The position numbers and the translations under genes were made by a program. From Rhodovibrionaceae bacterium (GTDB lineage Bacteria > Pseudomonadota > Alphaproteobacteria > Kiloniellales > DSM-21159), in NCBI GenBank assembly GCA_028279885.1, contig JANQMX010000023.1:1-64000 (forward strand): 64,000 bases of DNA. The letters are read 5' to 3'. This document shows positions 7,814 through 30,703 of this stretch, piece by piece. Within the stretch, counting starts at the first letter, position 1. Each line of letters starts with the position of its first letter. The notes beneath the pieces were generated by a model. It searched no databases. It saw nothing but the letters and a program-made list of their open reading frames with translations, and was not told where the DNA came from.

Positions 7814-7935
7814 GTCACCCCGGAGGAGCCTCGCGAGAGGCGACATCCGGGGTCCATCTCGACGCCGGGCGCCGGCTGAGGAATGGTTCCCGGCTCACAG
7901 TCTTCGCTGACGCGAAGCCTGCGTCCGGGATGACA
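7814..7935. repeat. REP palindromes (inverted copy plus TTCGCTGACGCGAAGC unit)
   Basis: Bases 7814-7857 are the long REP unit in opposite orientation (GTCACCCCGGAGGAGCC to GGGGTCCAT). Bases 7881-7935 carry a second unit built on GGTTCCCGGCTC, CTTCGCTGACGCGAAGC and GTCCGGGATGAC, related to the unit at 51440-51533. These occupy most of the gap between the membrane-protein gene and the tRNA. Confidence 0.7.
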
Positions 7936-8084
7936 GTTTGTGGAGTTGCACCGCTCGCTGGCCGCACCCACGCTTGTCACCCCCCACCCATGGGCTTGCC
8001 GAGAACGCGTTGAAAAGCGCCGTCGGCTTCGATAGGTTCCGCAGCCTGCACGCCGGGGCACGTCCGCTGCCCCAAGGCCCTGCG

Positions 8085-8358: not shown

Positions 8359-8453
8359 TGTCGCTGCTACGACCGCAAAGTCGGCAAGCGTGCGCGCATA
8401 GCGAAGGGCGAACTCGGTCAGTAAATCCGGGTCCGCAAAGGCGCCGCCGCTGC
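8359..8453 (-). pseudogene. fragment of a TetR regulator gene (partial copy of the gene at 9371-9916)
   Basis: Read on the minus strand, the segment translates to AFADPDLLTEF followed by ALRYARTLADFAV. This aligns with AFAEPDVLAEF and APRYAHTLADFAA in the intact TetR protein. DNA similarity spans about 92 bp against roughly 9508-9600, with a 2-nt difference in length near its left end. Neither the DNA-binding N-terminus nor the C-terminus is present, so it is a non-functional relic. It lies on the far side of the topAI locus from the intact gene and in the same orientation. The surrounding sequence (8234-8600) holds no other gene that I can support. Confidence 0.75.
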
Positions 8454-9370: not shown

Positions 9371-9916
9371 TCAGCCCCGGTCGATCATCGACCCTAGATG
9401 TTGCACGACGCGATCTCGGGTACGATCGTCCAACGGACGCAATCCCAAAACCTCCAGGAGCCACAATCCGTCCGTCGCCAAGAGCGCGATCGTGGCGTCG
9501 AGAGGGCTGTCGCTGTCGGCCGCAAAGTCGGCAAGCGTGTGCGCATAGCGCGGGGCGAACTCGGCCAGCACGTCCGGTTCGGCAAAGGCGGCGGCGAGCA
9601 GGGCCGCGTCGGGACGGAGATGCGCGCCGCGCGGACCCAGCATCCCCGCCACGTAGCCCTTTGCCATATGCCCGGATCCCTCGGGCAGGCTTGCGACCTC
9701 ATTCGCGACCGCCGCGTCCAGCCGGTCGAAGGCCCGCGCGAGCATCGCGCGGAGCAGGTCCCGCTTGCCGGCAAAGCGATACTGCAAGCCCCCCTTGCTG
9801 ATGCCCGAGCGCGCGGCGACGCGCGCTAGGGTCAGCGCAGCGACGCCCTGCTCGCGGACCAGCACCTCGGCCGCATCCAGCACCGCATTTTCGTCGATGG
9901 TTGGTTGACGTCCCAT
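9371..9916 (-). CDS. TetR-family transcriptional regulator
   Basis: A 181-aa one-domain regulator. The N-terminal helix-turn-helix region covers about residues 10-50 (AAEVLVREQGVAALTLARVA, then RSGISKGGLQYRFAGKRDLL). The effector domain contains MLGPRGAHLRPDAALLAAAF. It lies divergently from an SMR-type exporter gene, with a perfect 18-bp palindrome just upstream of its own start, and so most likely represses both. It starts at ATG 9916 with no competing start. A shorter decayed copy of its middle part lies at 8359-8453. Confidence 0.92.
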   Translation of the reverse strand: MGRQPTIDENAVLDAAEVLVREQGVAALTLARVAARSGISKGGLQYRFAGKRDLLRAMLARAFDRLDAAVANEVASLPEGSGHMAKGYVAGMLGPRGAHLRPDAALLAAAFAEPDVLAEFAPRYAHTLADFAADSDSPLDATIALLATDGLWLLEVLGLRPLDDRTRDRVVQHLGSMIDRG

Positions 9917-13010: not shown

Positions 13011-13424
13011 GTGCCACGAGAGACTTTTCAGCCGCCTGAGTTGTTCGACAGCAAGAAATGGGGATTTTCGCAGATTGTCGTCTCGCCACCCGGACGAACG
13101 GTGCATATCTCGGGTCAGGTCGCATGGGATGCGAGCGAGAGCGTCTTGGCCGACGACCTGGAGACTCAGTTCAGGAAAGCGCTGGAGCACGTGTTCATCG
13201 CCGTTCGCGCGGCAGGTGGCGAACCGGACGACCTCCAGTTCTTTCGCTTCTATATCCCGAACTTTCGGCCGGGGGAGGACGCGGAAACGATCGCGCGCGT
13301 TCTCGTCGATGTCTTCGGCACGGAGAACCCCCCGGGATCGTCTTGGATCGGCGTTCAAGCGCTCGCCCAGCCGGAGTTTCTGATCGAGGTTGAAGCGACG
13401 GCGATCATCCCGGACCCCGCATGA
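13011..13424 (+). CDS. RidA/YjgF-family enamine/imine deaminase
   Basis: A 137-aa protein from GTG 13011, preceded by a CAGGAG ribosome site. An in-frame ATG at 12954 would add 19 residues atypical of the family. RTVHISGQVAWDASESVLA and DLETQFRKALEHVFIAVRAA are the usual RidA core, and ALAQPEFLIEVEATAII is the C-terminal trimer motif carrying the conserved glutamate. The classical substrate-binding arginine region is replaced by FRFYIPNF, so it may belong to a divergent subgroup. Its stop overlaps the next start as ATGA. RidA proteins hydrolyse reactive enamines from PLP enzymes; the target here is unknown. Confidence 0.85.
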   Translation: MPRETFQPPELFDSKKWGFSQIVVSPPGRTVHISGQVAWDASESVLADDLETQFRKALEHVFIAVRAAGGEPDDLQFFRFYIPNFRPGEDAETIARVLVDVFGTENPPGSSWIGVQALAQPEFLIEVEATAIIPDPA

Positions 13425-14059
13425 CTCCCGAGGAGATCGTCCGCCGCTTCCCGCGGCTCTATCACGTGACCGAGCCCGGCGCGCACGAGAGTGTGCGCCG
13501 GCACGGGCTTCTCTCGACCGTCGCGTTGCTCGATCTCTTCGAGACGCCGGAGAGCGATCGGCTCCGCCTGTTGCGCGCGCGCCGGCCGGAGCCTGTGCCG
13601 CTCTCACACCCGGTCCATGGCGAGGCGATCCTGAACGACCAGCGCCCCTTGTCGATGAAAGCGCTGGAGAGCTGTCTCGACGACGGCATGGCGCCGGCCG
13701 ACTGGCTCGGCATGCTCAACGGCAAGGTGTTCTTCTGGCCGGATGAAAAGCAGTTGCAACGCTTGACCCAGGCGCGGGCCAACCGGGCGCGTCAGCGCGA
13801 GGTCCTCGTCTTCGACACGGCAGGGCTCATGGAGGAGAGCTTCGACCGCCTGCGCCTCTCGCCGATCAACACCGGCAATACGATGCGCCGCCCGGCCCGA
13901 CGCGGCCTCGCCACCTTCGCGCTGGCGAAAGACCACGCCTGGGAGGAGTGGCGCAGCCAGCGCGGAGGCCGCGACAGCGTGGTCGAGATCGCCATCGACC
14001 ATCGGGTTGCCTCGGCCGGCGATGCGCTTGTGGAGGTCAGGCGCGTCGGCGAGGCGTGA
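13421..14059 (+). CDS. DUF7002-like protein, possibly ADP-ribosyltransferase-like
   Basis: A 212-aa protein translationally coupled (ATGA) to the RidA gene. The N-terminal LYHVTEPGAHESVRRHGLL resembles the opening motif of DarT-like and other ART-fold proteins, in which the histidine contacts NAD. A middle GMLNGKVFFWPDEKQLQRL and a later TGNTMRRPARRGLATFALA follow. I assign it to the DUF7002 group from overall pattern; any ADP-ribosyltransferase activity is speculative. Its last 12-14 codons are duplicated at 16710-16753, beyond the ATPase gene, so its 3' end is an insertion boundary. Confidence 0.65.
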   Translation: MTPEEIVRRFPRLYHVTEPGAHESVRRHGLLSTVALLDLFETPESDRLRLLRARRPEPVPLSHPVHGEAILNDQRPLSMKALESCLDDGMAPADWLGMLNGKVFFWPDEKQLQRLTQARANRARQREVLVFDTAGLMEESFDRLRLSPINTGNTMRRPARRGLATFALAKDHAWEEWRSQRGGRDSVVEIAIDHRVASAGDALVEVRRVGEA

Positions 14060-14064
14060 CGACA
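14021..14064 (+). repeat. tail repeat C (3' end of the DUF7002-like gene, intact copy)
   Basis: GATGCGCTTGTGGAGGTCAG and onward to TGACGACA, covering the last codons, the stop and 5 nt beyond. 39 of 44 bases match the copy at 16710-16753, ungapped. Confidence 0.75.
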
Positions 14065-14140: not shown

Positions 14141-16480
14141 CTAAACAAGCTGCTCTTGGACTTCGTCGCCAAGACGAAGAACAGGCCAAAGTGCATGGTT
14201 AACGATGTATCTGGTAGCGCCTGCCCACTTTCTGATTCGAACCCTCAATAGTTCAATATTATAGTCCACATCGTAAATATATATTGGATCTTGTTCCGCT
14301 CTCTGCACGCCAAGAATACCATAATACATGAGGAAAGATATTACTCTTTCCGACTCTTCGCTCTCCAAACCAAAAAGCTGGATAAGAGTAGATAGTTCTT
14401 CATGAGAAAACGATGAGTTTTCCTCGGAGAACTCGTATACTAATTTGCGCGCCTTCGGGAAAATGTCAGTTAGTTCTCTATCTACTTCTGTGATTAGATC
14501 CTGAGAGTAAGTTCGCAGACCTCTAGCAATGTCTTCTACTTCTATTCTTTCATGACCTAGATTAATTGCGTAGCCGAGACTATGCCGGAAGATCTTTAAT
14601 AGATTTCTCGGTCGCATCAAGCTTCGATCAATCATGCAGTCGATTGATCTCTCCCCCGAATAGTGAGATACAGCAATTCTGCCCCAGAGACTCGGGAAGT
14701 CAGAGTTCACATCATCAGGCAACGAATACACCACTCTACGCTTCAAAACCTCGGACAATAAATCTCTATCCGACCAGTCCAAAGTTGCGCGCATTTCCTT
14801 TCCGTAGTCCGCTGAGCCTGCCATTAATAACGTGTAGACATCATCTCTCACAAATACCACAGAGCGAAAATCAATATCGGCCCGTCGGAGATTCCTCTCT
14901 AGCTTACGGCTGGCATCTATAAGACAGCGAAGAACAAATATATCAGTGTCACTGACGCCCTCAACACTCCAACCCTTATCTATGTTATCGAACAATAGCC
15001 AGACTTCGCCTTTAAATCTTAGATATTCACATAGATGCTCGAATACTCTTTTTATGTCATGAGTGTACAATATTTCTGTTAACTCTTCACTTGTTACATC
15101 AATCTTTTCGCTAGTAGTGAAGGCTGCTTGATAGTTGTTAGAAAGTGCCTCTGATAGCCGTAGTAGTCGCTCCGAAAAATCGCCGGCGACTGCCAGGTCA
15201 GACTCTCCGTAAAGCTCCCGTAGTCGGATGTACTTCTTCGTAAGTCTGTGATCGTGCAGATGGGAGGTTTGATCTTTCTCAAGAACTTTGTACGTAATCT
15301 CAAGTAGAAGTAGGTATTCCCAGAAGGCTGTTATAAGGTGTTGCCGCGCACCCTCAGCAAGGTAATTTAATACTCGCTCCTTAAGTTTTATAAGTTGATA
15401 TCCTTCGGGCTTGAGATCAACTACAATGTTTGCTTTGTTCTTTCTTTTTGTGTTGCGAAGCTGCACAAATAAGGCTGTCTTTCCTGACCCCTTTCGCCCC
15501 ACAACAAGATTCACTTCTCCACGTATCGCTCGCTGGTAGTCATCGGTTACAAGATAGTATTTAGAGAGCGTAGTCATTTCATTCTCTGCTGTCGGATCGC
15601 CGACGCGGAGCGTGCTCAATACACTGGCGACGTCGGCAACAGAAGCATCGTCGCGCTGTGTGTATTCTGTAATCTCCAACGAGAATTCTTGCACTACATC
15701 ACGAATATCGTCGGGGTGTCGGTACTTCTTGGTAATATCTCGAACATCCAGCGGTGGAATGTATTCGGTTGGATGGATAATCAGGGTGGGTAGTTCCAAT
15801 GCGACGGATAGACCAGCAACAAACATTGCGCGAAGATTATGCTCGCGTTGTCCATTCGCACCATCGCCAAGCAATGGCGCGACCACTCCTGCGGACTGCG
15901 AGACGTGGCGAATGGCGTCCATCGCGGCCATGCGGACATCTTCGCTAGGATTGAAGCTTCGGTACATCCACCGTGCTTTTTTGATCCGCGATACAAGAAT
16001 ACCGAACGCATCGGTGCGATATGGCGGTTCAACAATATAGACTGGAGCTTTATGATCGATGGTAGGTACTAATGGAATCGGGTCGAAACCGCTTCGAGTC
16101 AGAAGTAGCCTACTTAGATCTTCAGAGCTCAAGTATCCCTCATATCCTAGAGTATCAAATACACCAACAGAAGTCGCTAAATCCTTGTCTCCTGTCATTG
16201 CTTTATTTCTAAAAAGCAAGCATCGCTTGCCTTTTCCAATTGCGAAGCCAACTTCAAAGGCAACATTCGAATTGAGGAAAGTTATGTCTGCTGCTACGTA
16301 CGCACTTGTAGATATTTTCTCAAAAATTGGATTTGTTAGTGGAACACCCGCAACGTCGTTAACTTCCCAGGGTTCTATAATTGATTCGGGTGCAGACGCA
16401 TTGTATTTGCTGATTGCGCTACGGATGGTTTGGACGACCTCACCCGACTGTCCTGGATATGCGAAGAAGGCAGTCTGCAT
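14141..16480 (-). CDS. TIR-like / P-loop ATPase fusion protein, candidate defence effector
   Basis: A 779-aa cytoplasmic protein. Residues 1-140 include ISTSAYVAADITFLNSNVAF followed by EVGFAIG. This ADx(T/S)-N-NVxxExG pattern is typical of TIR-like/nucleoside-deoxyribosyltransferase-like folds that bind or cleave NAD-type nucleotides, with the glutamate as candidate catalytic residue. A P-loop NTPase follows: Walker A VVGRKGSGKTALF (about 324-336), Walker B VWLLFDNIDKGW (about 491-502) and a helical C-terminus. The architecture resembles the Sll1717-type P-loop ATPase group. Base composition is unlike its neighbours (24 G/C in the 60 bases from 14281). Flanking tail repeats mark it as an insertion. 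A defence role is inference. Confidence 0.7.
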   Translation of the reverse strand: MQTAFFAYPGQSGEVVQTIRSAISKYNASAPESIIEPWEVNDVAGVPLTNPIFEKISTSAYVAADITFLNSNVAFEVGFAIGKGKRCLLFRNKAMTGDKDLATSVGVFDTLGYEGYLSSEDLSRLLLTRSGFDPIPLVPTIDHKAPVYIVEPPYRTDAFGILVSRIKKARWMYRSFNPSEDVRMAAMDAIRHVSQSAGVVAPLLGDGANGQREHNLRAMFVAGLSVALELPTLIIHPTEYIPPLDVRDITKKYRHPDDIRDVVQEFSLEITEYTQRDDASVADVASVLSTLRVGDPTAENEMTTLSKYYLVTDDYQRAIRGEVNLVVGRKGSGKTALFVQLRNTKRKNKANIVVDLKPEGYQLIKLKERVLNYLAEGARQHLITAFWEYLLLLEITYKVLEKDQTSHLHDHRLTKKYIRLRELYGESDLAVAGDFSERLLRLSEALSNNYQAAFTTSEKIDVTSEELTEILYTHDIKRVFEHLCEYLRFKGEVWLLFDNIDKGWSVEGVSDTDIFVLRCLIDASRKLERNLRRADIDFRSVVFVRDDVYTLLMAGSADYGKEMRATLDWSDRDLLSEVLKRRVVYSLPDDVNSDFPSLWGRIAVSHYSGERSIDCMIDRSLMRPRNLLKIFRHSLGYAINLGHERIEVEDIARGLRTYSQDLITEVDRELTDIFPKARKLVYEFSEENSSFSHEELSTLIQLFGLESEESERVISFLMYYGILGVQRAEQDPIYIYDVDYNIELLRVRIRKWAGATRYIVNHALWPVLRLGDEVQEQLV

Positions 16481-16709: not shown

Positions 16710-16753
16710 GATGCGGTCGTGGAGGTCAGGCGCGTCGGAGGGCCGTGACGACA
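16710..16753 (+). repeat. tail repeat D (decayed copy of the DUF7002-like gene end)
   Basis: GATGCGGTCGTGGAGGTCAG to TGACGACA matches 14021-14064 at 39 of 44 positions. No open DUF7002-like frame leads into it. It is fused directly to a relic of the membrane-protein gene region (16762-16875). Confidence 0.7.
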
Positions 16754-16761
16754 AAGTGTTC

Positions 16762-16875
16762 GTCCTTGCACCTGTGAAACGACCTGCCGATGGTGACGGC
16801 CCGTACATGCAACTGCGCTTGTCACCCACAGCAAGTACTGGGTGTCCTCGCCGGCCTGGGTCGGCTTCGAGATTG
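16762..16875 (+). pseudogene. relic of the 5' region of the 130-aa membrane-protein gene
   Basis: GTCCTTGCACCTGTGAAAC and CGACCTGCCGATGGTGACGG match the leader of the intact gene (about 17787-17825). Bases 16815-16875 then translate to LVTHSKYWVSSPAWVGF, comparable with LVTQTKHRVSWPGWLVP of the intact protein. The segment between the two blocks, including the start codon, is missing. It cannot encode a full product. Bases 16481-16709 hold no gene that I can support. Confidence 0.6.
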
Positions 16876-16902: not shown

Positions 16903-17685
16903 ATGCCTGAACTCGCCGAATTCCTGTCGCTCGCGGTCGCGCTGGCAAACGCCTCTTCCTGCCGTGCCAGAGACGATTGGCGTGGAGACTTGGCCGTGAC
17001 CTACAAAACGGACGGGTCATCCGTGACCGACGCCGATCTGAGTATCGAAACGACGTGGCGAGAGCTTATCCGTCGGCGCTTCCCTGCCCATGGAATACTG
17101 GGAGAGGAGTACGGCCCCGAAACCGGACGCAGTGCCTATACATGGGTTCTCGATCCAATCGACGGGACACGTCAGTTTGGAGCAGGGCTGTTGAACTTCG
17201 CCTCTCTCATCAGCCTTTGCCGCGATGGGTCTCCAGTCCTGGGCATCATCGATTTGCCGTTGAGCGGCACGCGATACGTGGCCGCCGAAGGACAAGGCAC
17301 GCTCTTTGACGGCCGCCTAGTCCGGAGCAGCGGGCAAAGCGACATCAGCTCTGCGATCATCAGTCTTGCAAACCCCGATAGCTTCACGGGCGACGCCGCG
17401 CATGGCTATGAGCGGATGCGCGCCTCTGGGCGGCTCAGAGTGTTCGACGGTGGCTCACCAGCCTATGGCGCGCTGTCACGCGGATTGATCGACGTTTGCC
17501 TGAATGGAAGCGATCTGGACGCCTTCGACATCTGTGCTCTCTGTCCGGTTGTGACGGAAGCAGGGGGAATGATCTCCGACTGGAATGGGCAAGCCTTGTC
17601 GATCGCATCAAGCGGAGCCGTCGCCGCGAGCGCTTCCCCCAACCTTCATGCAGTCGTGCTGAGCAAACTGACCGAGCTTGTTTGA
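16903..17685 (+). CDS. inositol monophosphatase-family phosphatase (histidinol-phosphatase-like)
   Basis: A 260-aa Mg-dependent phosphatase of the IMPase superfamily. The metal site is visible as ILGEEYG (Glu), WVLDPIDGTRQF (the signature DPIDGT) and SDLDAFDICALCPVVTEAGG (distal Asp). TYKTDGSSVTDADLSIE is the N-terminal motif of HisN-type histidinol-phosphate phosphatases, so histidinol-phosphate or a related sugar phosphate is the likely substrate; this is inference. ATG 16903 gives a family-typical start. The gene is bracketed by a decayed and an intact copy of the neighbouring membrane-protein gene head, suggesting acquisition. Confidence 0.88.
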   Translation: MPELAEFLSLAVALANASSCRARDDWRGDLAVTYKTDGSSVTDADLSIETTWRELIRRRFPAHGILGEEYGPETGRSAYTWVLDPIDGTRQFGAGLLNFASLISLCRDGSPVLGIIDLPLSGTRYVAAEGQGTLFDGRLVRSSGQSDISSAIISLANPDSFTGDAAHGYERMRASGRLRVFDGGSPAYGALSRGLIDVCLNGSDLDAFDICALCPVVTEAGGMISDWNGQALSIASSGAVAASASPNLHAVVLSKLTELV

Positions 17686-17864: not shown

Positions 17865-18257
17865 ATGTCGCATACCGAGTTGATTGCGTTCGCTGGTTTT
17901 ATCGTCGCCGCCGTCGTTATGCTGCTGGTCACCCAGACCAAGCACCGGGTGTCCTGGCCGGGTTGGCTCGTCCCGATCGCGGTCGTGGTTCCCTTCGCGG
18001 CCTGGACTGGTTTCGCCATCGCCGAGCAGGGGCTTTTCGACTATCTGCCGACGCTCTTGGGATCCGATTGGGGGTTGCAGCTCTGGCTCGACCGCCTGAT
18101 GAGCGTGACGGCAGCCTTCTACCTGTTGCAAAACCGCGCACGGGCGGCCGGCATGAAGTCGGAGGTCTGGGTGATCGTCGTCATCTTCACCGGCAGCATC
18201 GGGCTGCTGCTGATGCTGGCGCGGACGCTCTACCGCGAACGCAACATGGACGCCTGA
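17865..18257 (+). CDS. 130-aa integral membrane protein of unknown function
   Basis: Starts at ATG 17865 behind a GGGAGG ribosome site; an in-frame TTG at 17850 is less likely. Three to four hydrophobic segments are visible: ELIAFAGFIVAAVVMLLVT, WLVPIAVVVPFAAWTGFAI, and VWVIVVIFTGSIGLLLMLA near the end. The polar middle contains LFDYLPTLLGSDWGLQLWLD. I do not recognise a named family. Its last 72 coding bases plus 12 downstream bases are duplicated at 19111-19194, and parts of its leader and 5' coding region at 16762-16875, so both ends of this gene are recombination boundaries. Confidence 0.75.
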   Translation: MSHTELIAFAGFIVAAVVMLLVTQTKHRVSWPGWLVPIAVVVPFAAWTGFAIAEQGLFDYLPTLLGSDWGLQLWLDRLMSVTAAFYLLQNRARAAGMKSEVWVIVVIFTGSIGLLLMLARTLYRERNMDA

Positions 18258-18269
18258 AACCGGTGAGGC
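18186..18269 (+). repeat. 84-bp tail repeat A (3' end of membrane-protein gene)
   Basis: TTCACCGGCAGCATCGGGC through ATGGACGCCTGAAACCGG to GGTGAGGC. It is identical to 19111-19194 except for two substitutions (A/G at 18195 versus 19120, and the GAC/GGC codon near the end). The homology starts and stops abruptly. Confidence 0.95.
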
Positions 18270-18391
18270 GTGACGCAGGCATGCGCCCGGGCGGGGAGGG
18301 CGTACACGGTGTTAGCCGCCCGATACCTGCCATGCGTACGAGAGAGGACTTTCGACTCGCGCCCTGAACAGGCGCGAACCATACTCACGCA

Positions 18392-19081
18392 ATGCCACGC
18401 CGAAGCGACCATGACCCCTGGGCTATCCACTGGCTCAACGCCCGGCACGATGTGACCCGCTATGCCGCAGCGGTCGAGGCAGCGGTTGCCGATGTGCGTC
18501 AACGCGCGGCCTCGATCGTTGCACTGCCGCCGCTCGACTTCGTTGTGTCCGCTGTACCGGGCCGTGCCATTCCGGAGATCGGCCATGTGGGGCACTCATT
18601 CTACCCCGGCGCAATCTTCCTGACGCTTGATCCGGAAAACCCATCGCTCGCCGACAACCTTGGCGAACCGCTTGCGCGAATGATCGCCCATGAACTGCAC
18701 CATGCGCTGCGCTGGGACGCGATCGGCTATGGTACAACGCTTGGCGAGGCACTGGTCAGTGAGGGCTTGGCCGGGCACTTTGTCGCCCAGCTGTTTGCCT
18801 CACGCCCCGAACTCTGGGAGCGCGCGCTCGATGGGGCAGCGCTTGCCACCATGGCGACAGAAGCCCAAGGCGCGCTGGAGGCTCCGCGCTACGACCATAA
18901 TGCTTGGTTTTTCGGGGCCGGCCGCTACCCGCGCTGGGCTGGCTACGCGCTTGGGTATGCCGTCGTGGGCGCATGGCTCGCCGCCGAGCCCGGCCGCACC
19001 GCGGCAGGCGCGATCGGCGTCCCGGCCACTGAGATTACACCCGGCCTTGCCGCATTGTCGGATGCCGCATCGCCGGGCTAG
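18392..19081 (+). CDS. DUF2268-type Zn-dependent metalloprotease
   Basis: A 229-aa cytoplasmic protein with the zincin motif AHELHHALRW (H100, E101, H104). Downstream is GEALVSEGLAGHFVAQLF, whose glutamate is a good third zinc ligand. HSFYPGAIFLTLDPENP and DHNAWFFGAGRYPRWAGYALG match the layout of DUF2268 predicted metalloproteases (HSP/YjaZ-like). No signal peptide is present. It starts at ATG 18392; no strong ribosome site is evident. The gene lies exactly between two near-identical 84-bp copies of the preceding gene's tail, and so looks like a recent insertion. Bases 18270-18391 hold nothing recognisable. Confidence 0.82.
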   Translation: MPRRSDHDPWAIHWLNARHDVTRYAAAVEAAVADVRQRAASIVALPPLDFVVSAVPGRAIPEIGHVGHSFYPGAIFLTLDPENPSLADNLGEPLARMIAHELHHALRWDAIGYGTTLGEALVSEGLAGHFVAQLFASRPELWERALDGAALATMATEAQGALEAPRYDHNAWFFGAGRYPRWAGYALGYAVVGAWLAAEPGRTAAGAIGVPATEITPGLAALSDAASPG

Positions 19082-19110
19082 GGGGCCCTGTCATGAGGCT
19101 GTCTCAGTCG

Positions 19111-19194
19111 TTCACCGGCGGCATCGGGCTGCTGCTGATGCTGGCGCGGACGCTCTACCGCGAACGCAACATGGGCGCCTGAAACCGGTGAGGC
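19111..19194 (+). repeat. 84-bp tail repeat B
   Basis: Direct repeat of 18186-18269 with two mismatches. It lies 30 bp after the metalloprotease stop and carries the last codons and stop of the membrane-protein gene without its upstream part. Confidence 0.95.
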
Positions 19195-19209: not shown

Positions 19210-19812
19210 ATGCGTGAGCCTGCCGACCGGATCGTCGAGCTCTACCGGCGCCACGCACAGGCCTGGGCGGAGGTGCGCGGCACGAAACTGATCGAGGGGA
19301 CATGGCTCGATCGTTTCGTCGCGCGTCTGCCCCAGCGGGCCGAGATACTCGATCTGGGCTGCGGCCCGGGCGTGCCGATCGGGCGGGCGCTTGTCGCCCG
19401 TGGATACGCGCTGACCGGCGTGGACGCCGCGCCCGAGATGATCGCGCTCTTCGAGACGAACCTCCCGGGACAGGAGGCCGTCGTGGCGGATATGCGGAGC
19501 TTGCGACTGCAACGCTGCTTCGACGGCGTGCTGGCGTGGGACAGCTTCTTCCACCTGTCGCCCGCGGCGCAGCGCGGAATGTTCCCTATCTTCCGGGCGC
19601 ACGCCAAACCCGGCGCCGCCCTGATGTTCACCAGCGGCCCCGCCTGTGGCGAGGCCATCGGTGCGCTTGAAGGCGAACCGCTCTATCATGCGAGCCTTGG
19701 GCCCGATGAGTATCGCGCACTGCTGGCTCAAAACGACTTCGAGGTCGTCTGCCACACCATTGAGGACCCGGACTGCGGCGGGCATAGCGTGTGGCTTGCG
19801 CAGCGGAGCTGA
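19210..19812 (+). CDS. class I SAM-dependent methyltransferase
   Basis: A 200-aa protein with SAM motif I ILDLGCGPGVPIGRALVARG (about residues 41-60), an acidic residue at the end of strand 2 (LTGVDAAPEMI) and motif II/III VVADMRSLRLQRCFDGVLAW. The C-terminal half (HYASLGPDEY-type loop, HSVWLAQRS) resembles Methyltransf_25/11 small-molecule methyltransferases. The substrate is not deducible. It starts at ATG 19210, 15 bp after tail repeat B, so it may originally have followed the 130-aa membrane-protein gene directly. Confidence 0.88.
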   Translation: MREPADRIVELYRRHAQAWAEVRGTKLIEGTWLDRFVARLPQRAEILDLGCGPGVPIGRALVARGYALTGVDAAPEMIALFETNLPGQEAVVADMRSLRLQRCFDGVLAWDSFFHLSPAAQRGMFPIFRAHAKPGAALMFTSGPACGEAIGALEGEPLYHASLGPDEYRALLAQNDFEVVCHTIEDPDCGGHSVWLAQRS

Positions 19813-19974: not shown

Positions 19975-20397
19975 ATGCCGAAGAGACTCTTCATACTGAA
20001 GGCCGGCCTGGTGATCTGGGTGCTGTGGCACCTGGGCTTCGGATACCTGTCGACCTTTGATCCCCAGCTGGGCGCCGACGTTGTCGGTTGGAGCACACCG
20101 GATGGCTGGAACGACGAACTGCTGGCCATGAGCAAGCAGTACGGCATGGTGATGTTCCTGCTGGCCGGCGTCTACCTGATCATGCTGCTCGATCCTCTGC
20201 GCTATCTGAGCCTGATCTGGGTTGCCGTCGGCGAGCAGGTCTTGGGCATCGCCTATGGCTTTTACATCTTTGCGCAACTCGGCCAGTTGACGACCACGCA
20301 GCTCGCGGTTCAGTTCGCCGTCAATGCCGTGCTCATCGTCGGCATGCTGCTTCTCTGGTTCGGATTGCGCCGGCTGCCGCAAACGCAGCCCGCCTAG
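19975..20397 (+). CDS. 140-aa four-helix membrane protein of unknown function
   Basis: Starts at ATG 19975 (MPKRLFILKAGLVIWVLWHL) behind a GGAAGGATGAG-type site. Helices lie near residues 7-22, 53-72 (MVMFLLAGVYLIMLLDPLRY), 76-97 (LIWVAVGEQVLGIAYGFYIF) and 106-128. The pattern of a soluble loop STFDPQLGADVVGWSTPDGW between helices 1 and 2 is reminiscent of BphX-like/DUF proteins, but I cannot assign one. The frame extends upstream to 19882 without protein-like content. Confidence 0.7.
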   Translation: MPKRLFILKAGLVIWVLWHLGFGYLSTFDPQLGADVVGWSTPDGWNDELLAMSKQYGMVMFLLAGVYLIMLLDPLRYLSLIWVAVGEQVLGIAYGFYIFAQLGQLTTTQLAVQFAVNAVLIVGMLLLWFGLRRLPQTQPA

Positions 20398-20421
20398 GAA
20401 CGCTTCACCGAATTCGGATTG

Positions 20422-21114
20422 ATGCCGGTTTGTTTTGACCTCGACGGCACGCTGACCGACCCCAAGCAGGGGATCGTCGGCTCAATCCGCTACGCCTTGC
20501 AAGAGCTCGGACACCCTGTCTCCCAGCAGGACGACGATCTCACTTGGTGCATCGGTCCGCCTCTGCTGGGCAGCTTCGAAACGCTGCTGGGCGATGGCGA
20601 AGCGGCCAAGACAGCTTTGCGCCTCTATCGGGAACGCTTCGCCGATATCGGCCTCTACGAGAACGACGTCTACGCAGGCGTTCCGGAGGTGCTGGCGGCC
20701 CTGAAGCGCGAGGGGCGCCGTCTGTTCGTCGCGACAAGCAAGCCCAGGGTCTACGCCGAGAGGATCGTCGATCACTTCGGACTCTCCGCGTTCTTCGAGG
20801 CGGTCTGCGGGTCCGAGCTCGACGGCACGCGGTCCGACAAGACGGAGCTGTTGGCATGGCTTGCAGAGCGCAAACGGCTCCAGCCTCGGCAGACGACCAT
20901 GGTCGGCGACCGCCGCCACGACATCATCGGCGCCCTGAACAACGGAATGAAAGCTGTCGGCGTGCTGTACGGCTACGGCGACCGCGCGGAGCTGGAAGGC
21001 GCCGGTGCCTCGCAGCTCTGCAACACGCCCAGTGAACTGGTTGCGCGTCTCAGCACCTCTGGCCGGGCGGAGCGGGCAATGGAGTCCGTTCCCTCACCCG
21101 GAGAAAGGCTTTAG
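20422..21114 (+). CDS. HAD-superfamily hydrolase, phosphoglycolate phosphatase-like
   Basis: A 230-aa haloacid dehalogenase-type phosphatase. Motif I is CFDLDGTLTDPKQGI with the nucleophilic Asp, motif II is LFVATSKPRV, motif III is the Lys in SDKTELLAWLA, and motif IV is TTMVGDRRHDIIGALNNG. The helical cap between motifs I and II marks subfamily IA, to which Gph and pyrophosphatase PpaX belong. ATG 20422 follows a TTG in the same frame; either gives the motif at residue 6-8. The C-terminal 25 residues run past the usual fold. The substrate is unknown. Confidence 0.87.
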   Translation: MPVCFDLDGTLTDPKQGIVGSIRYALQELGHPVSQQDDDLTWCIGPPLLGSFETLLGDGEAAKTALRLYRERFADIGLYENDVYAGVPEVLAALKREGRRLFVATSKPRVYAERIVDHFGLSAFFEAVCGSELDGTRSDKTELLAWLAERKRLQPRQTTMVGDRRHDIIGALNNGMKAVGVLYGYGDRAELEGAGASQLCNTPSELVARLSTSGRAERAMESVPSPGERL

Positions 21115-21151
21115 CCTAGCGGCTCGACCGCCAGCCCTTTCCCGGATCCCC

Positions 21152-22087
21152 GTGGACCTCCTCACCCTTATCCTGCTCTCCGCTTCGGCGGCTGCCGTTG
21201 CGGCAGCCCTCTGGCTGTGGACGCCGGACAAGCGCCGGGCCGTCTTGGAGCGCGACTACCTGCGGAGCCCCGCCGATAAGCTCGACGTCGGCGGCACGAC
21301 GCTGCACCTGCGCGACGAGGGCCCGCCGACCGCACCGCCCGTTATCCTGCTGCACGGCTTCGGCGCCAGCCTGCACAGCTGGGAGCCTTGGGTCCGCGCC
21401 CTGTCGCGCGACCACCGGGTGATCTCGCTGGATCTGCCCGGCTGTGGCCTGTCGCCGCCCGACCCTGACGGCGACTACAGCGACGGACGCGTCGTGCGGC
21501 TCCTGCTGGCGCTGCTTGAGCAGAAGGGCATCGCGCGGGCCAGCATCATCGGTCATTCGATCGGCGGCCGCATCGCCTGGCGACTGGCGGCCGAGCACCC
21601 TGAGCGCGTCGAGAAGCTCGTGCTGATCGCGCCCGACGGCTTTGCCAGCCCCGGCTTCGAATACGGCGTGGCACCCAAGGTGCCGGCGATGATGTCCTTG
21701 ATGCGCCACATCCTGCCCAAGCCGCTGCTGCGCGCCAATCTGGTGCAGAGCTACGGCGACCCGGCGGCGCTGACCCGCGCCAACCTCGATCGCTACCATG
21801 ACCTGATGCTGGCGCCCGGCAACCGTCGCGCCCTGCTCGACCGCATGGCGCAGACCGTGCTGACCGACCCGCAACCGGCGCTGGAGCGGATCGCGGCACC
21901 GGTCCTGCTGCTGTGGGGCGAGAAGGATGCGCTGATCCCCTTCGACAACGCGCAGGACTATCTCCGCCACCTGCCCGATGCGCGGCTCGTATCGTTCCCC
22001 AAGCTCGGTCACTTGCCACAGGAGGAGGCGCCGGAGGAGACGCTGCCGCCGGTCGCCGCGTTCCTGTCGACGCCTCAATCGACCTAA
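21152..22087 (+). CDS. alpha/beta hydrolase, N-terminally membrane-anchored
   Basis: A 311-aa protein from GTG 21152, giving VDLLTLILLSASAAAVAAAL, a clear N-terminal anchor. The oxyanion loop is LLHGFGASLHSW, the nucleophile elbow IIGHSIGGRIAWRLA (Ser), the acid WGEKDALIPF and the catalytic His LGHLPQEEAPE, a complete Ser-Asp-His triad. It is similar to carboxylesterase/lipase and C-C hydrolase-like members; the substrate cannot be stated. The frame is open further upstream over the HAD gene end, but only the region from 21152 is family-like. Confidence 0.88.
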   Translation: MDLLTLILLSASAAAVAAALWLWTPDKRRAVLERDYLRSPADKLDVGGTTLHLRDEGPPTAPPVILLHGFGASLHSWEPWVRALSRDHRVISLDLPGCGLSPPDPDGDYSDGRVVRLLLALLEQKGIARASIIGHSIGGRIAWRLAAEHPERVEKLVLIAPDGFASPGFEYGVAPKVPAMMSLMRHILPKPLLRANLVQSYGDPAALTRANLDRYHDLMLAPGNRRALLDRMAQTVLTDPQPALERIAAPVLLLWGEKDALIPFDNAQDYLRHLPDARLVSFPKLGHLPQEEAPEETLPPVAAFLSTPQST

Positions 22088-22214
22088 CCAACCTAGAGAG
22101 GGCGGGCCTGGGCCAGGGTTCCGACGCCATCACTTCACTCGCCGGTGAATTGACCTAACTGCCGTGTGGATACAAGGCTGTTGATCGCCGTAACACACAG
22201 GCGAGAGACGGCCT

Positions 22215-22242
22215 CCGTTGTGAGATCCTCATCACACAACGG
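22215..22242. promoter_or_regulatory. inverted repeat upstream of the second RND operon
   Basis: CCGTTGTG (22215-22222) and CACAACGG (22235-22242) form a perfect 8-bp inverted repeat with a 12-nt centre. It lies 113 bp before the adaptor start, suiting either a regulator site or a hairpin ending the hydrolase transcript. The gap 22088-22354 contains no supported gene. Confidence 0.45.
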
Positions 22243-22354
22243 CCGTGTTTGGCTTGATGTTCGTGTACCGCGACGACAGCTCAAAAAAGCTGTTCCAAAA
22301 GTGTTGGCGGAGCCCTTCCAGCCCTCCGACACACAGGCTGTGGAGAGGCTGTGA

Positions 22355-23476
22355 ATGACGACGCCCCAGAGCATCGACAGGGCTATCGATAGGGCTTGGC
22401 GTGCGGCACTGATCGTCCCACTGCTGCTGGCCGTCTTGGCGTCAGCCGCGCAGGGCCAGAGCCAGGGCGAAGGGGCCCGTCCCGCCGCACCCGTCATCGT
22501 CGCGCCGGCGCAACGCGGCGAGATGGTCGATCGCATCAACGCTTTGGGCACCACGCGGGCGAACGAAAGCGTGCGCGTCACCGCCAGCGTGACCGAGACC
22601 GTGCAAGAGCTTCGCTTCGACGACGGCCAGGCGGTCGAGGCCGGCGAGGTCCTGGTCGTGCTCAACAAGGCCGAGGAAGAAGCCGATCTGCGCGCCGCCG
22701 AGGCCATCCTCGCCGAGCGCCGCCTGGCCTTCGAGCGAGCGCAGGAGCTGGAGAGCCGGCGGTTTACGGCCACCGCGCAGCTCGACGAGCGACGCGCGGC
22801 ACTGCTGGAGGCGGAGGCGGCGATCGAAGCCGTCCGGGCCCGCATCGCAAATCGCATCATCCGCGCACCCTTCGGTGGCGTCGTCGGCCTGCGCGACATC
22901 AGCCTGGGGGCTTTGGTGGCGCCGGGTGATCTGATTACCACCCTGGACGACGTCAGCGTCATCAAGCTCGATTTCTCGGTGCCCGCGGTCTTCTTGCCGG
23001 CGCTCCGGCCCGGGCTGCCGATCGTCGCAAAAGCCTCCGCCTTTGGGGGCCAAGCGTTCACCGGCGAGATCGGCAGCATCGGCTCCCGTGTCGACCCGAC
23101 GACCCGCTCGATCATGGCCCGTGCCCTGATCCCCAATGCCGAGGGGACCCTGAAGCCGGGTCTGCTGATGACCGTCGAACTGCTGAAGAACGCGCGCCAG
23201 GCGATCATCGTGCCGGAGGAGGCCCTGATCCCACGCGGTCGTCAGACGCAGGTCCTGGTCGTCGACCCCGAAACCAGCACGGCCGAAAGCCGCGACGTGG
23301 AGGTCGGCGCCCGCCGGCCCGGCGCGGTCGAGATCCTCGCCGGGCTGGAGGAAGGGGAGCTGGTCGTGACCCACGGCACGCAGCGGGTGGCGCCGGGCCA
23401 GGCGGTCACCATCACGGCGGTGGAGAGCGGTAGCGAGCCCCTGAGCCAGTTGCTCGACGACGCGGCAGAGGGCTAG
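22355..23476 (+). CDS. RND efflux periplasmic adaptor (HlyD/AcrA family)
   Basis: A 373-aa membrane-fusion protein. A signal peptide core (LIVPLLLAVLASAAQGQ) leads to the mature part beginning near QSQGEGARPAAP. RINALGTTRANESVRVTAS and VQELRFDDGQAVEAGEVLVV form the first lipoyl half, an alpha-hairpin of about 70 residues follows (AEEEADLRAAEAILAERRLA), then IIRAPFGGVVGLRDISLGAL and beta-barrel segments. It ends 2 bp before the permease start, a clear operon. It should bridge the permease of the next gene to a TolC-like channel. Confidence 0.93.
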   Translation: MTTPQSIDRAIDRAWRAALIVPLLLAVLASAAQGQSQGEGARPAAPVIVAPAQRGEMVDRINALGTTRANESVRVTASVTETVQELRFDDGQAVEAGEVLVVLNKAEEEADLRAAEAILAERRLAFERAQELESRRFTATAQLDERRAALLEAEAAIEAVRARIANRIIRAPFGGVVGLRDISLGALVAPGDLITTLDDVSVIKLDFSVPAVFLPALRPGLPIVAKASAFGGQAFTGEIGSIGSRVDPTTRSIMARALIPNAEGTLKPGLLMTVELLKNARQAIIVPEEALIPRGRQTQVLVVDPETSTAESRDVEVGARRPGAVEILAGLEEGELVVTHGTQRVAPGQAVTITAVESGSEPLSQLLDDAAEG

Positions 23477-23478
23477 CC

Positions 23479-26400
23479 GTGCTGCTCTCCGATGTCTCGG
23501 TAAAGCGGCCGGTCTTCGCCTCGGTGATCAGTCTTTTGCTGTTGGCCTTCGGCTTCGTCGCCTTCGACCGCTTGCCGCTGCGCGAGTACCCGGACATCGA
23601 CCCGCCGATCGTCTCGATCGAGACCGTCTATCCCGGCGCAGCCGCCAGCGTCGTCGAGACCCGCATCACCGAGATCATCGAAGACCGCATCGCCGGGATC
23701 GAGGCCATCCGCTCGATCGAGTCGCGCAGCGAGGACGGCCGCTCTCTGATCGACATCGAGTTCAACATCGGGCGTGACGTCGATGCCGCGGCCAACGATG
23801 TGCGCGACCGCGTCTCCGGCGTTCTCGACGATCTGCCGGACGAAGCCGACCCGCCGGAGATCAGCAAGGTCGATTCCAACGACGACGTGATCATGTGGCT
23901 CAACCTGGTCAGCGACCGGCATTCCGTGCTCGAGCTGACCGACTATGCGGAGCGCTTCCTGACCGACCGCTTTTCCGCGCTGGACGGCGTCGCCCGCGTG
24001 CGGATCGGCGGCGGGCTGAGCCAAGCCATGCGGGTTTGGCTGGACCGCGAGGCGCTGGCCGCCCGCGGCCTGACGGTCAGCGACGTCGAGGAGGCGCTGC
24101 GCGCCGACAACGTCGAGCTGCCGGCCGGCAGCATCGAATCCCTGGAACGGCAGTTCACCGTGCGGGTCGAGCGCAGCTTCCTGTCGGCCGACGACTTCGC
24201 GCAGCTTGTCTTGGGCCGCAGCGACGACGGCTTTCTGCTGCGCCTGGGCGACGTCGCCCGGGTCGAACAGGGCGCCGTCGAAGAGCGCACCTTCTTTCGC
24301 GGCAACGGCGTGCCCATGGTCGGCATCGGCATCATCCGGCAGTCGCAGGCCAACACGCTGGCGGTGGCCCAGGTCGCGCGCGACGAGGCCGCGCGCCTCA
24401 ACGGCAACCTGCCCGACGGCATGGAGATCCGGCAGAGCTTCGACACCAGCGTGTTCATCCAGGGTGCGATCAACGAGGTCTACAAGACCCTGTTCATCGC
24501 CATCGGCCTGGTGGTGCTGGTCATCTACCTCTTCCTGGGCAGCGTCCGAGCCATGCTGGTGCCGGCGGTGGTGGTGCCGGTCTCCCTGGTCGCCACCTTC
24601 ATTGCGCTCTACGCCCTCGGCTTCTCGATCAACCTCCTGACCCTTCTGGCGCTGGTGCTGGCCATCGGACTGGTGGTGGACGATGCCATCGTCGTGCTCG
24701 AAAACATCCATCGGCGCATCGAGTCCGGCGAGAGCCCGCTGGTCGCCGCCTTCAAGGGGACGCGGCAGGTCGGCTTCGCGGTGATCGCGACGACCGTCGT
24801 ACTGATCTCTGTCTTCGTACCGCTGGCCTTTCTGGAGGGCGATGTCGGGCGGCTGTTCTCGGAGTTTGCCCTGACCATGGCCGCCGCGGTGGCCTTTTCC
24901 AGTATCGTCGCCTTGTCCCTCTCCTCCATGCTGGCCTCGAAGGTCTTGCAGCCGACCAAGCGGCGGACGCTGATCGCACGCCTTGTCGAGCGGGGCTTCG
25001 CCGCTGTCGAGCGCGGCTACCGCAGCGCCCTGGCGGGCGCGCTGCGACGGCCGTCTGTCGTCGCCGTCCTGTTTCTTTTGGTGCTGGGGAGCGCCGCCTG
25101 GCTGTTCCGCGAGATCCCCAGCGAGTACGCACCCAAGGAAGACCGGGGCGCCTTCTTCATCCTGGTGAACGGCCCCGAGGGCGCGTCCTTCAGCTATATG
25201 ACCGAGTACATGGACGAGATCGAGCGGCGGCTCACGCCGTTGGTCGAAAACGGCGAGGTCACCCGGCTGCTCATCCGCGCGCCCCGGGCCTTCAGCAACC
25301 TGGAGACCTTCAATACCGGGATCGGCATCCTGGTGCTGAACGACTGGGCCGTGCGCCGCTCGGGCTGGGAGATCATGGACGAGGTGCGCAGGCTCACCGC
25401 CGACCTGCCCGGCGTGCGCGCCTTCCCGGTGATGCGCCAGGGCTTCGGCGGAGGCATCCAGAAACCGGTGCAGTTCGTGATCGGCGGCGGAACCTACGCC
25501 GAGCTGGCCGAGTGGCGCGACATCCTGCTGGCCCGGCTGGCCGAGGACAATCCGGGGCTGGTCGGCATCGACCACGACTACAAGGAAACCAACCCCCAGC
25601 TCCGGGTCGAGATCGACCGCGACCGGGCCGGCGACCTCGGGGTCACCATCGGCAACATCGGCCGCACTCTGGAGACCATGCTGGGCTCGCGCCGGGTCAC
25701 CACCTACATCGATGCCGGCGAGGAATACGACGTGATCCTGGAGGGCGAGCGGGACGCGCAGCGGACCCCGACCGACATCCACAACGTCTATGTCCGCTCG
25801 GAGCGCTCCGGCCAGCTCATCCCGCTCTCCAACCTGGTGACCCTGGAGAACTTCGCCGACTCCGCCACGCTCAACCGCTACAACCGCACCCGGGCGATCA
25901 CCATCGAGGCCAATCTGGCGCCCGGCTACACCCTGGGCGAGGCCCTGGCGCATCTGGAAGCGCTGGTCGACGCCCATCTGCCGGACACGGTGGTGATCGA
26001 CTACAAAGGAGAATCGCTGGACCTCAAGACCAGCAGCGGCTCCCTGCTCTTCGTCTTCCTGCTCGGGATCGCCGTGGTCTTCCTGGTTTTGGCGGCGCAG
26101 TTCGAAAGCTACCTGCATCCCCTGGTGATCATGCTGACGGTGCCGCTCGCCATAACAGGGGCCCTGCTGGGCCTCTACCTGACCGGCGGCACGCTGAACA
26201 TCTACAGCCAGATCGGCCTGATCATGCTGGTGGGCCTGGCGGCCAAGAACGGCATCCTGATCGTCGAATTCATCAACCAGAGGCGCGACGAGGGCATGGC
26301 CTTCGACCGCGCCGTCATCGAGGCTTCGGTTACCCGCCTGCGCCCCATCGTCATGACCGGCATCACGACGGCGGCCGGCTCGGTTCCCTTGATCCTGGCT

Positions 26401-26628
26401 TTCGGGGCCGGCGCCGAGACCCGCACCGTGATCGGCACCGTCGTCTTCTCCGGCGTGCTGGCGGCGACGCTCTTCACCCTCTTCGTCGTGCCGGTGGCCT
26501 ACAGCGCCCTCGCCCGGCGGACCGGGTCACCCGGCGACGTGGCGCAAAAGCTCGAAGCCGAGATGCAGGCCCAGCCGCCGGCGCGGCACGGCACGCCGCT
26601 CGCGACCGACTCCTCGCCGGCCGAGTAA
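23479..26628 (+). CDS. RND-family efflux permease
   Basis: A 1049-aa inner-membrane antiporter starting with GTG 23479 (LLSDVSVKRPVFASVISLLL). TM4 has GLVVDDAIVVLENIHRR with the proton-relay aspartates and TM10 has GLAAKNGILIVEFINQRRD with the lysine. Periplasmic porter motifs such as YKETNPQLRVEIDRDRAGDL are in place. The C-terminus ends with a 35-residue soluble tail. It belongs to the same superfamily as the first RND pump but is clearly divergent, so the two operons are not a recent duplication. The substrate is unknown. Confidence 0.95.
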   Translation: MLLSDVSVKRPVFASVISLLLLAFGFVAFDRLPLREYPDIDPPIVSIETVYPGAAASVVETRITEIIEDRIAGIEAIRSIESRSEDGRSLIDIEFNIGRDVDAAANDVRDRVSGVLDDLPDEADPPEISKVDSNDDVIMWLNLVSDRHSVLELTDYAERFLTDRFSALDGVARVRIGGGLSQAMRVWLDREALAARGLTVSDVEEALRADNVELPAGSIESLERQFTVRVERSFLSADDFAQLVLGRSDDGFLLRLGDVARVEQGAVEERTFFRGNGVPMVGIGIIRQSQANTLAVAQVARDEAARLNGNLPDGMEIRQSFDTSVFIQGAINEVYKTLFIAIGLVVLVIYLFLGSVRAMLVPAVVVPVSLVATFIALYALGFSINLLTLLALVLAIGLVVDDAIVVLENIHRRIESGESPLVAAFKGTRQVGFAVIATTVVLISVFVPLAFLEGDVGRLFSEFALTMAAAVAFSSIVALSLSSMLASKVLQPTKRRTLIARLVERGFAAVERGYRSALAGALRRPSVVAVLFLLVLGSAAWLFREIPSEYAPKEDRGAFFILVNGPEGASFSYMTEYMDEIERRLTPLVENGEVTRLLIRAPRAFSNLETFNTGIGILVLNDWAVRRSGWEIMDEVRRLTADLPGVRAFPVMRQGFGGGIQKPVQFVIGGGTYAELAEWRDILLARLAEDNPGLVGIDHDYKETNPQLRVEIDRDRAGDLGVTIGNIGRTLETMLGSRRVTTYIDAGEEYDVILEGERDAQRTPTDIHNVYVRSERSGQLIPLSNLVTLENFADSATLNRYNRTRAITIEANLAPGYTLGEALAHLEALVDAHLPDTVVIDYKGESLDLKTSSGSLLFVFLLGIAVVFLVLAAQFESYLHPLVIMLTVPLAITGALLGLYLTGGTLNIYSQIGLIMLVGLAAKNGILIVEFINQRRDEGMAFDRAVIEASVTRLRPIVMTGITTAAGSVPLILAFGAGAETRTVIGTVVFSGVLAATLFTLFVVPVAYSALARRTGSPGDVAQKLEAEMQAQPPARHGTPLATDSSPAE

Positions 26629-26780
26629 GCCGACCGGCAGGAATGCGCCCTCGGCATCCGCCTATGGAGCTTGAACGGGCCGACGCGACAGCCGGCCGCA
26701 GCCGCCCAGCACGGCGTATCCTTGCCTGGCGGGCGCGCATCATGACGGTGTAGCTGTCTCCAATCGCGGAATCCTTTTTC

Positions 26781-28049
26781 ATGGCTCAAGAGCATCATGT
26801 CGTCGTGGTCGGCGGGGGCTTCGCCGGGCTGGCCTGCATCAGGGGCCTGCGCGGCGCCAAGGTGAAGATCACCCTGATCGACCAGCGCAACCACCATCTC
26901 TTTCAGCCGCTGCTCTATCAGGTCGCCACCACCATCCTGCCGACCTCCGAGATCGCCTGGCCGCTGCGCCGGCTGTTCAAGGAGCGGCCGGAAGTCACCA
27001 CCCTGATGGCGACGGTCTCGGGTGTCGATTGCCACAGCAAGGAGATCGTTTTCGCCGACGGGAGCCGAATGAGCTTCGACACGCTGGTCCTCGCCACCGG
27101 GGCGCGCCATTCCTATTTCGGCCGCGACGAGTGGGAGGCTCATGCGCCCGGGCTGAAGACGCTGGAAGACGCCACCACCATCCGGCGCCGGATCCTCTCC
27201 GCCTTCGAGCGCGCCGAGTGGTGCGACGATCCCAACGAACGCGAGGCCTGCCTGACCTTCGCCGTGATCGGCGCCGGACCGACCGGTGTGGAGCTTGCCG
27301 GCATCATCGCCGAGCTGGCCCGGCGGGTGCTGCCGCCGGAGTTCCGGCGCATCGACACGGCCAAGGCGCGCGTCCTCCTGATCGAAGCCGGGCCGCGCGT
27401 GCTGCCCGCCTTTCCAGAGAAGCTCGCCCGCTACGCCGAACGTGCTCTCGTCAAGCTGGGCGTGGAGGTCATCACCGACCGGCCGGTCACCGCCTGCGAC
27501 GGCGGGGGCGTTGTTGTCGGCGATGAACGCATTGCCGCGAAGACGACCATCTGGGCGGCCGGGGTGATGGCCTCGAAGGCCGCGCAGTGGCTCGGCGCCG
27601 AGGCGGACCGGGCGGGCCGGGTCATCGTCGCGCCCGACCTGACCGCGCCCGGACACCCGGACATCTTCGTGATCGGCGACACAGCGGCGGTGACGGATGC
27701 CGCGGACAAGCCGGTGCCGGGCATCGCGCCGGCCGCCAAGCAGCAGGGGGCCTACGTCGCCCGGGTTATCCGGCAGCGCCTCGCCGGCGAACCGTCAGAT
27801 GCGCCTTTCCGCTATCGCCATGCCGGCAATCTCGCCACCGTCGGCCGCAGCGCGGCGGTCGTCGACTTCGGCCGGTTGCAGCTCACCGGCGCCCTGGCCT
27901 GGTGGTTCTGGGGGCTGGCGCACATCTACTTCCTGATCGGCACGCGCAGCCGCCTCGCCGTCGCCTACAGCTGGCTCTGGTCCTACCTGACCGGGCAGAA
28001 GAGCGCCCGCCTGATCACCCAGGGCTCGGCTGCGTCGAGCCAGAAGTAG
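26781..28049 (+). CDS. ndh: type II NADH dehydrogenase (NDH-2)
   Basis: A 422-aa single-subunit, non-proton-pumping NADH:quinone oxidoreductase. The FAD-binding motif is VVVGGGFAGLACIRGL, the second Rossmann motif for NADH is FAVIGAGPTGVELAGII, and the FAD motif is GHPDIFVIGDTAAV. AAKQQGAYVARVI and a C-terminal amphipathic/hydrophobic segment (WWFWGLAHIYFLIGTRSRLA) provide membrane association. ATG 26781 is family-typical. The extreme C-terminus SARLITQGSAASSQK is echoed in a decayed copy at 31921-31971, so the 3' end is an insertion boundary for the following 3.9 kb. Confidence 0.93.
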   Translation: MAQEHHVVVVGGGFAGLACIRGLRGAKVKITLIDQRNHHLFQPLLYQVATTILPTSEIAWPLRRLFKERPEVTTLMATVSGVDCHSKEIVFADGSRMSFDTLVLATGARHSYFGRDEWEAHAPGLKTLEDATTIRRRILSAFERAEWCDDPNEREACLTFAVIGAGPTGVELAGIIAELARRVLPPEFRRIDTAKARVLLIEAGPRVLPAFPEKLARYAERALVKLGVEVITDRPVTACDGGGVVVGDERIAAKTTIWAAGVMASKAAQWLGAEADRAGRVIVAPDLTAPGHPDIFVIGDTAAVTDAADKPVPGIAPAAKQQGAYVARVIRQRLAGEPSDAPFRYRHAGNLATVGRSAAVVDFGRLQLTGALAWWFWGLAHIYFLIGTRSRLAVAYSWLWSYLTGQKSARLITQGSAASSQK

Positions 28050-28093
28050 GGAGCTTGTTCACCTGCGGCGCAGTCAACGCCGCCGCCGAAAGG

Positions 28094-28411
28094 TCACAGA
28101 TCGTTCTTCAGATCGAGAAGCGAGACCGCTTCGATTTGCGACTCCGCAATCTTCGACATGGTCTCCAGATGATAGGCGTCGATCTCATGCTTTGAGTTCA
28201 CGAAGGTCTTCTCGATCCATTGCACGTGCGTGAATCAGTGGAAGTAGGGCTCTCCGCCGATCTCGATCTGGAACCAGGACTCCAGGGCGACGCCCTCATC
28301 CACGAGCGTCTTCAGCGCCTCATCCCGTCGGGCAAGCAGGGTGTCGCGCCACTCACCCAGGTCTGTGTCGGAGCCAGGCTTCAGCTTGATCAATCCCGCC
28401 GCCGACTCCAT
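28094..28411 (-). pseudogene. DUF6176-like protein gene interrupted by an in-frame TGA
   Basis: From ATG 28411, behind a textbook AAAGGAGGT ribosome site, 58 codons read MESAAGLIKLKPGSDTDLGE and so on to GGEPYFH, followed by TGA at 28237-28235. The same frame continues as FTHVQWIEKTFVNSKHEIDA and ends SLLDLKNDL with a stop at 28096-28094, for 105 codons in all. The two halves together look like one DUF6176/ABM-type small protein, and the TGA is best explained as a TGG-to-TGA nonsense change. No selenocysteine element was looked for computationally. If translated, the 58-residue N-terminal half would be produced. Confidence 0.7.
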
Positions 28412-28448
28412 GGGACCTCCTTTAAGATGTCTTTCGGGCTGGAGCAAC

Positions 28449-30695: not shown

Positions 30696-30703
30696 CCAAG
30701 CAT

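Follow-up and report, generated by a model that had tools for sequence, protein, structure and literature searches.

Two near-identical copies of the 3' end of a small membrane-protein gene (mem) bracket a single gene for a predicted metalloprotease, and on balance these repeats were probably left by a single event of gene acquisition through homology-assisted insertion. The evidence comes from the anatomy of the repeat pair, from a different insert at the end of the same gene in a sister species, and from an empty site for one of the other gene-tail repeats in this genome.

The focal repeat pair and its cargo

A repeat search of the window (the whole 64,000-nucleotide stretch analysed here) recovered the direct repeats claimed in the preliminary description, 18186-18269 and 19111-19194, which are 84 nt long, identical at 82 of 84 positions (98%), and spaced 925 nt from start to start. 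The self-BLAST E value of 1e-35 means that this match is not due to chance, and a search of the 5.63-Mb assembly returned no third copy. The composition given earlier was likewise confirmed: 72 nt (18186-18257) correspond to the last 23 codons and stop of mem (17865-18257), and 12 bp more follow. The features of the locus are as follows.

16747-16863, forward strand: decayed second copy of the 5' part of mem and the region upstream of it, to the left of the IMPase-like gene; a remnant is present in the sister too
16903-17685, forward strand: inositol-monophosphatase-like (IMPase) gene between the decayed and intact mem copies (PF00459, 1.3e-41), common to the sister
17865-18257, forward strand: anchor gene mem, 130-aa membrane protein, intact copy (open reading frame and gene call)
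18186-18269, forward strand: proximal 84-bp copy, i.e. the terminal 72 nt of mem and the 12 bp after them (repeat search)
18270-18391, forward strand: segment from the proximal copy to the cargo gene; starts GTGACG, as does the sequence 3' of mem in genome G007, and resembles the distal copy of the sister
18392-19081, forward strand: cargo gene, DUF2268 predicted Zn-dependent protease with an HExxH motif (HELHH), 229 aa (PF10026, E 1.6e-31)
19111-19194, forward strand: distal 84-bp tail copy, outside any called gene (repeat search and gene calls)
19210-19812, forward strand: methyltransferase gene directly after the distal copy (Pfam Methyltransf_25, 3.2e-12)
19975-20397, forward strand: mem2, right neighbour common to the sister (92% aa identity)

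As previously described, the HExxH protease gene is the only called gene between the two copies. Among 60 other genomes of the order, this protease has only distant homologues (~35% identity). The outcome named beforehand as refuting an insertion, i.e. the protease in all relatives with diverged flanks, was not seen. Plasmid homologues reach 41-49% identity; a phage origin was considered and rejected, since no phage match was obtained. The anchor gene itself matched no Pfam family.

The 12 bp past the mem stop are informative about the earlier state of the gene. Read in frame, the window has ATG GAC GCC TGA AAC CGG TGA GGC where the aligned downstream copy of the sister has ATG GCG GCT GAG GAC CAG TGA GGC, and this in-frame alignment with the end of the sister's orthologous mem indicates that the 12 bp are the former last codons of mem. 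The proximal flank of the focal pair (GTGACG...) is more native-looking than the distal flank (TCTCGAG, then the methyltransferase). This methyltransferase gene is missing at the matching place in the sister, where the tail copy leads directly to mem2, and it is thus possibly another insert at the same mem end. The decayed extra copy of mem next to the IMPase gene, present in both species, shows repeated duplication events at the mem anchor.

The preliminary description also noted that recombination between the two 84-bp copies could excise the protease. Such an event would leave one intact mem and would represent ordinary RecA-type loss across a short repeat; restoration of a single gene by recombination is a property of any direct repeat with this layout.

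The same gene end in a sister species

For comparison we used one same-genus genome (G001, Rhodovibrionaceae bacterium PL24a_bin.31), hereafter the sister, which shares with the window the left neighbours RidA, IMPase, and mem as well as the right neighbour mem2. At the matching place it is without the DUF2268, methyltransferase, DUF7002, and TIR/ATPase-like genes of the window. Between mem and mem2 the sister instead carries two other small, unrelated genes, followed by a 103-bp copy of its own mem tail (97% identity). The boundaries of the repeat at this one gene thus differ between the two species, with 84 bp extending past the stop codon in the window vs. 103 bp ending before the stop codon in the sister.

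The two mem ends of the sister are not the same. The full gene upstream of the insert ends in EAAVGKR*, while the downstream copy ends in QMAAEDQ*; this second end and the adjoining flank TGAGGCGGGACG are orthologous to the mem end of the window. The 24 nt encoding the EAAVGKR* end are closer to the mem ends that occur naturally in other species (one such end is KAAASMR* in L025) than random sister DNA is (P = 0.00015 for mean identity and 0.002 for best identity), and left of this C-terminus switch both copies consist of the sister's own sequence. These differing ends, with the upstream one natural-looking, indicate that DNA carrying the end of another mem allele probably came in and that the old end was displaced downstream. 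No tail copy lies beside mem at any of the 19 further homologous loci (30-80% identity; 19/19 in the fetched stretches), and the donor order expected from the window, mem followed by DUF2268, was not seen among these other mem loci.

The window differs from the sister in several further segments. Regions 20405-28447 and 31908-37028 are absent at the matching sister place, where mem2 is followed by the counterpart of 28448-31907 and then by the sequence corresponding to 37029 onward. Dispersed short repeats occupy ~5080-8000 and 46844-52053 (GAGCCGGGGTCC-type at 46.8-52 kb), and dozens of places on the contigs of the sister match the 5-8 kb stretch in part. Tandem-type repeats of 27 nt are found at 50302-50814, inside a gene for a 1135-aa protein at 47674-51078.

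Other gene-tail repeats in the genome

Several other gene tails in the window are duplicated beyond a neighbouring gene or gene set, with the following features.

14021-14064, forward strand: proximal copy of the second pair, formed by the tail of the DUF7002 gene at 13421-14059
14141-16480, reverse strand: cargo of the second pair, a 779-aa protein with weak TIR-effector and AAA-ATPase similarities
16710-16753, forward strand: distal copy of the DUF7002 tail, 89% identity
28004-28039, forward strand: tail of an FAD/NAD-binding oxidoreductase gene (26781-28049), forming a weaker 36-nt pair with 31926-31961
59765-59806, reverse strand: distal tail copy of the third pair
59825-61873, forward strand: cargo of the third pair, a Septu system comprising PtuA (59825-61174; PADLOC, 3.5e-114) and PtuB (61178-61873; 2.8e-71)
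62014-62057, reverse strand: 3' end of a minus-strand gene that stops at 62014 and whose counterpart in the sister is 1128 nt long; this is the proximal copy of the third pair

The view that the focal pair is the freshest example of this pattern is borne out by its 98% identity, the highest among the tail pairs of the window, vs. 77-89% for the others. The Septu system is complete-looking, has a GC content of 0.55, and sits at a gene end between tail repeats of 37-44 bp; the corresponding place in the sister has no tail copy and is occupied by another gene, an EamA-type transporter as judged by eye from the sequence. The 779-aa protein matched no Pfam family, and its gene lies in AT-richer DNA (GC 0.40-0.50 in most 400-bp windows); this TIR/ATPase-like protein is a candidate defence gene product. 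Another pair, 8359-8449 / 9508-9596, was rejected as a tail instance because it is a gene-body fragment.

Two tail pairs, L071 and L078, lie outside the window. For L078 the sister offers an empty site: its gene has one tail, and 26 bases past the stop codon it resumes with the sequence that in this genome follows the distal copy. Accordingly, the distal flank of L078 (TGACCAGCCG) matches the sister (TGACCGGCCG) and the proximal flank does not. This comparison shows L078 to be an insertion after the stop codon that left the original end downstream, and the empty site implies that a tail-repeat layout can arise in this way. Taken together, the patchy presence of the protease in the order, the different insert in the sister, and the empty site at L078 support the earlier proposal that the tail repeat marks the edges of inserted DNA.

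We surveyed tail copies across 1.49 of the 5.63 Mb of the genome. Raw intergenic placements in this 1.49 Mb comprised 12 of the tail/downstream/direct type, three of the head-upstream type, and 0-1 of each other type, i.e. 12 vs. 5 in sum. After removal of paralogous PEP-CTERM anchors (L057), a repeat family (L171), short matches (L068 and L069), and duplicated prophage-like genes (L174), about six tail pairs were left, four of them in the window. The excess of tail repeats over two related control genomes was not significant (Fisher p = 0.27 even with seven pairs), nor was the tail-vs.-head asymmetry alone after curation (7 vs. 2, p = 0.18). No account of tail repeats at insertion hotspots came up in a search of the literature. 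In the discarded L174 (10443-18692; G000:C36:30443-38692), one gene tail occurs ahead of each of two large, mutually similar genes that are separated by small genes of low GC content, and this set looks like duplicated prophage structural genes.

Origin of the repeats and relation to known systems

The focal layout would be explained in one step by a single homologous crossover combined with a non-homologous join upstream of it. Incoming DNA would have comprised a mem 3' end with foreign sequence, including the DUF2268 gene, behind it; a homologous crossover would have taken place within the resident mem tail, and ~84 bp upstream of that point the other donor end would have been attached to the resident gene by a join requiring little or no homology. 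This would yield an intact mem and the new gene, with a spare mem tail left behind downstream. Equally, a circle with a tail fragment on it could have entered by a single crossover with a near-identical outcome, and the same process would have acted on the same gene in the sister with different cargo. Since both ends of the focal window pair are alike, so that neither a C-terminus switch nor a displacement of the sister type can be read there, we infer the focal insertion and its mechanism by analogy; the order of steps, the choice between a one-ended and a circular donor, and the route of DNA entry are likewise matters of inference. ComEC, which is present in the genome, would allow DNA uptake.

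Dedicated mobile elements account poorly for these observations. No terminal inverted repeats above shuffles were found for the focal insert, and its 84-bp repeat is not a short fixed duplication, which argues against a DNA transposon or insertion sequence. An integrase-borne island in a gene 3' end is disfavoured too, since only DUF2268 lies between the repeats and PF00589 integrases were detected neither there nor on the focal contig, the five PF00589 proteins of the genome being encoded on other contigs. These same five proteins could in principle act in trans on a non-autonomous cassette whose tail serves as an attachment site, and an insertion after the stop codon that leaves the gene intact does resemble islands using gene 3' ends. 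This reading is nevertheless highly improbable: the repeats enclose no recombinase, they range in length from 36 to 103 bp and derive from unrelated target genes, and at one and the same gene the two species have different boundaries, leaving no constant attachment core. A candidate attachment-site motif, GAGGCGTGACG, which follows two different anchor tails, was rejected because it was not enriched (four occurrences in 1.49 Mb vs. 1.9 expected). Variable boundaries, differing cargo at one anchor, and the lack of an integrase within the repeats or on this contig, of terminal inverted repeats, of an enriched end motif, and of a detected Ku argue against a site-specific element, a transposon, and Ku-dependent end joining.

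With no homology in the donor, foreign DNA could have been caught at a staggered break, with ~84 bp of resident sequence copied on both sides as in a target-site type duplication, the strict sense of insertion with long target duplication. This would suit the near-identity of the window copies over their full length, the long, variable duplications of ~100 bp in published cases (PMC3874152), and L078, in which about ten bases are the same in both copies of this genome but not in the sister and none is common to the distal copy and the sister alone. Yet we hold it to be unlikely, because the insert-adjacent copy in the sister has a different, natural-looking mem end that random capture would not give, Ku was not detected, and the same gene end was used repeatedly; the sister mem ends speak against plain target duplication at the sister site. 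In the other pairs, synonymous and nonsynonymous differences (counted by eye) did not separate homology-assisted insertion from simple target duplication. One could alternatively place a single tail duplication in the ancestor of the genus, with cargo swapped later and the tails of each genome kept alike by gene conversion. A tail copy at the same gene in both species and copies more alike within than between species, as concerted evolution gives, are compatible with this history, but the differing boundaries (84 bp past the stop vs. 103 bp before it), the differing distal-copy flanks, the different proximal C-terminus in the sister, and the outgroups without a tail copy make it quite unlikely. 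Finally, no insertion would be needed if the mem tail and an already adjacent DUF2268 gene had been duplicated in tandem and most of the second copy then deleted. The native-looking right flank of the proximal copy (GTGACG) fits such a duplication, and the nearby decayed mem copy indicates that duplication and decay occur here; this scenario is decidedly improbable all the same, given that it requires two events with lucky breakpoints, that DUF2268 is missing in the sister, and that the L078 pair has an empty site.

Homology-assisted insertion, the reading we prefer, has documented counterparts. Homology-facilitated illegitimate recombination has been documented experimentally (PMC2884548; PMC3240628). 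There, as proposed here, one donor end is joined by homology and the other without, and a second join upstream of the first would yield a repeated tail; unlike in those experiments, what is seen here is the footprint expected of the process. In rhs C-terminal displacement (Jackson et al. 2009), variable-length core fragments lie downstream, and a circle with a single crossover has been proposed (PMC2935791). The likeness extends to an intact gene, new DNA, and a displaced 3' fragment with a variable-length, near-identical core, and the displaced old 3' end is found in the sister, where 103 bp at 97% identity lead into a different natural end and the new and old C-termini differ. Unlike rhs, mem shows no sign of being a polymorphic toxin; its product is a small and conserved membrane protein, and the difference is confined to the last few codons.

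A further parallel is insertion with long target duplication (Nobusato et al. 2000; Furuta et al. 2010), which PMC1643837 and PMC3874152 describe, from strain comparison, as involving long, variable duplications of ~100 bp and mainly restriction-modification genes. In common with these cases, one or a few genes are flanked here by variable direct repeats of ~100 bp (84 in the window, 103 in the sister) with no known mobile element involved, and some of the cargo consists of defence genes. The cargo differs in not being restriction-modification (here a protease, Septu, and a TIR/ATPase-like gene), and the repeats differ in being gene tails. The empty allele of such insertions is seen here for L078, the sister's focal site being occupied by another insert.

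The minimal mobile elements of Neisseria (Saunders and Snyder) reportedly place different cassettes between the same two conserved genes with no integrase. The present loci are alike in having differing cassettes between the same conserved genes of related genomes and no integrase; to our knowledge, gene-tail repeats are not known for the Neisseria elements. It is improbable, in our estimation, that gene tails act more generally in this lineage as landing and exit points for integrase-free cassettes that circularise between tail repeats and re-enter by a single crossover at an orthologous tail, in a slow, RecA-only traffic that includes defence genes.

The finding is a clear new instance of known gene acquisition without a dedicated mobile element, and not a new mobile element. 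Many small bacterial gene gains involve no mobile element, and their entry route is rarely visible; gene-tail repeats represent a readable footprint of such gains. In the case at hand, two species acquired different cargo at one anchor gene, and one of them still allows the end of the incoming allele to be distinguished from the displaced end. Searching whole genomes for tail copies could therefore allow such events to be dated and counted, and recently acquired defence genes to be located.
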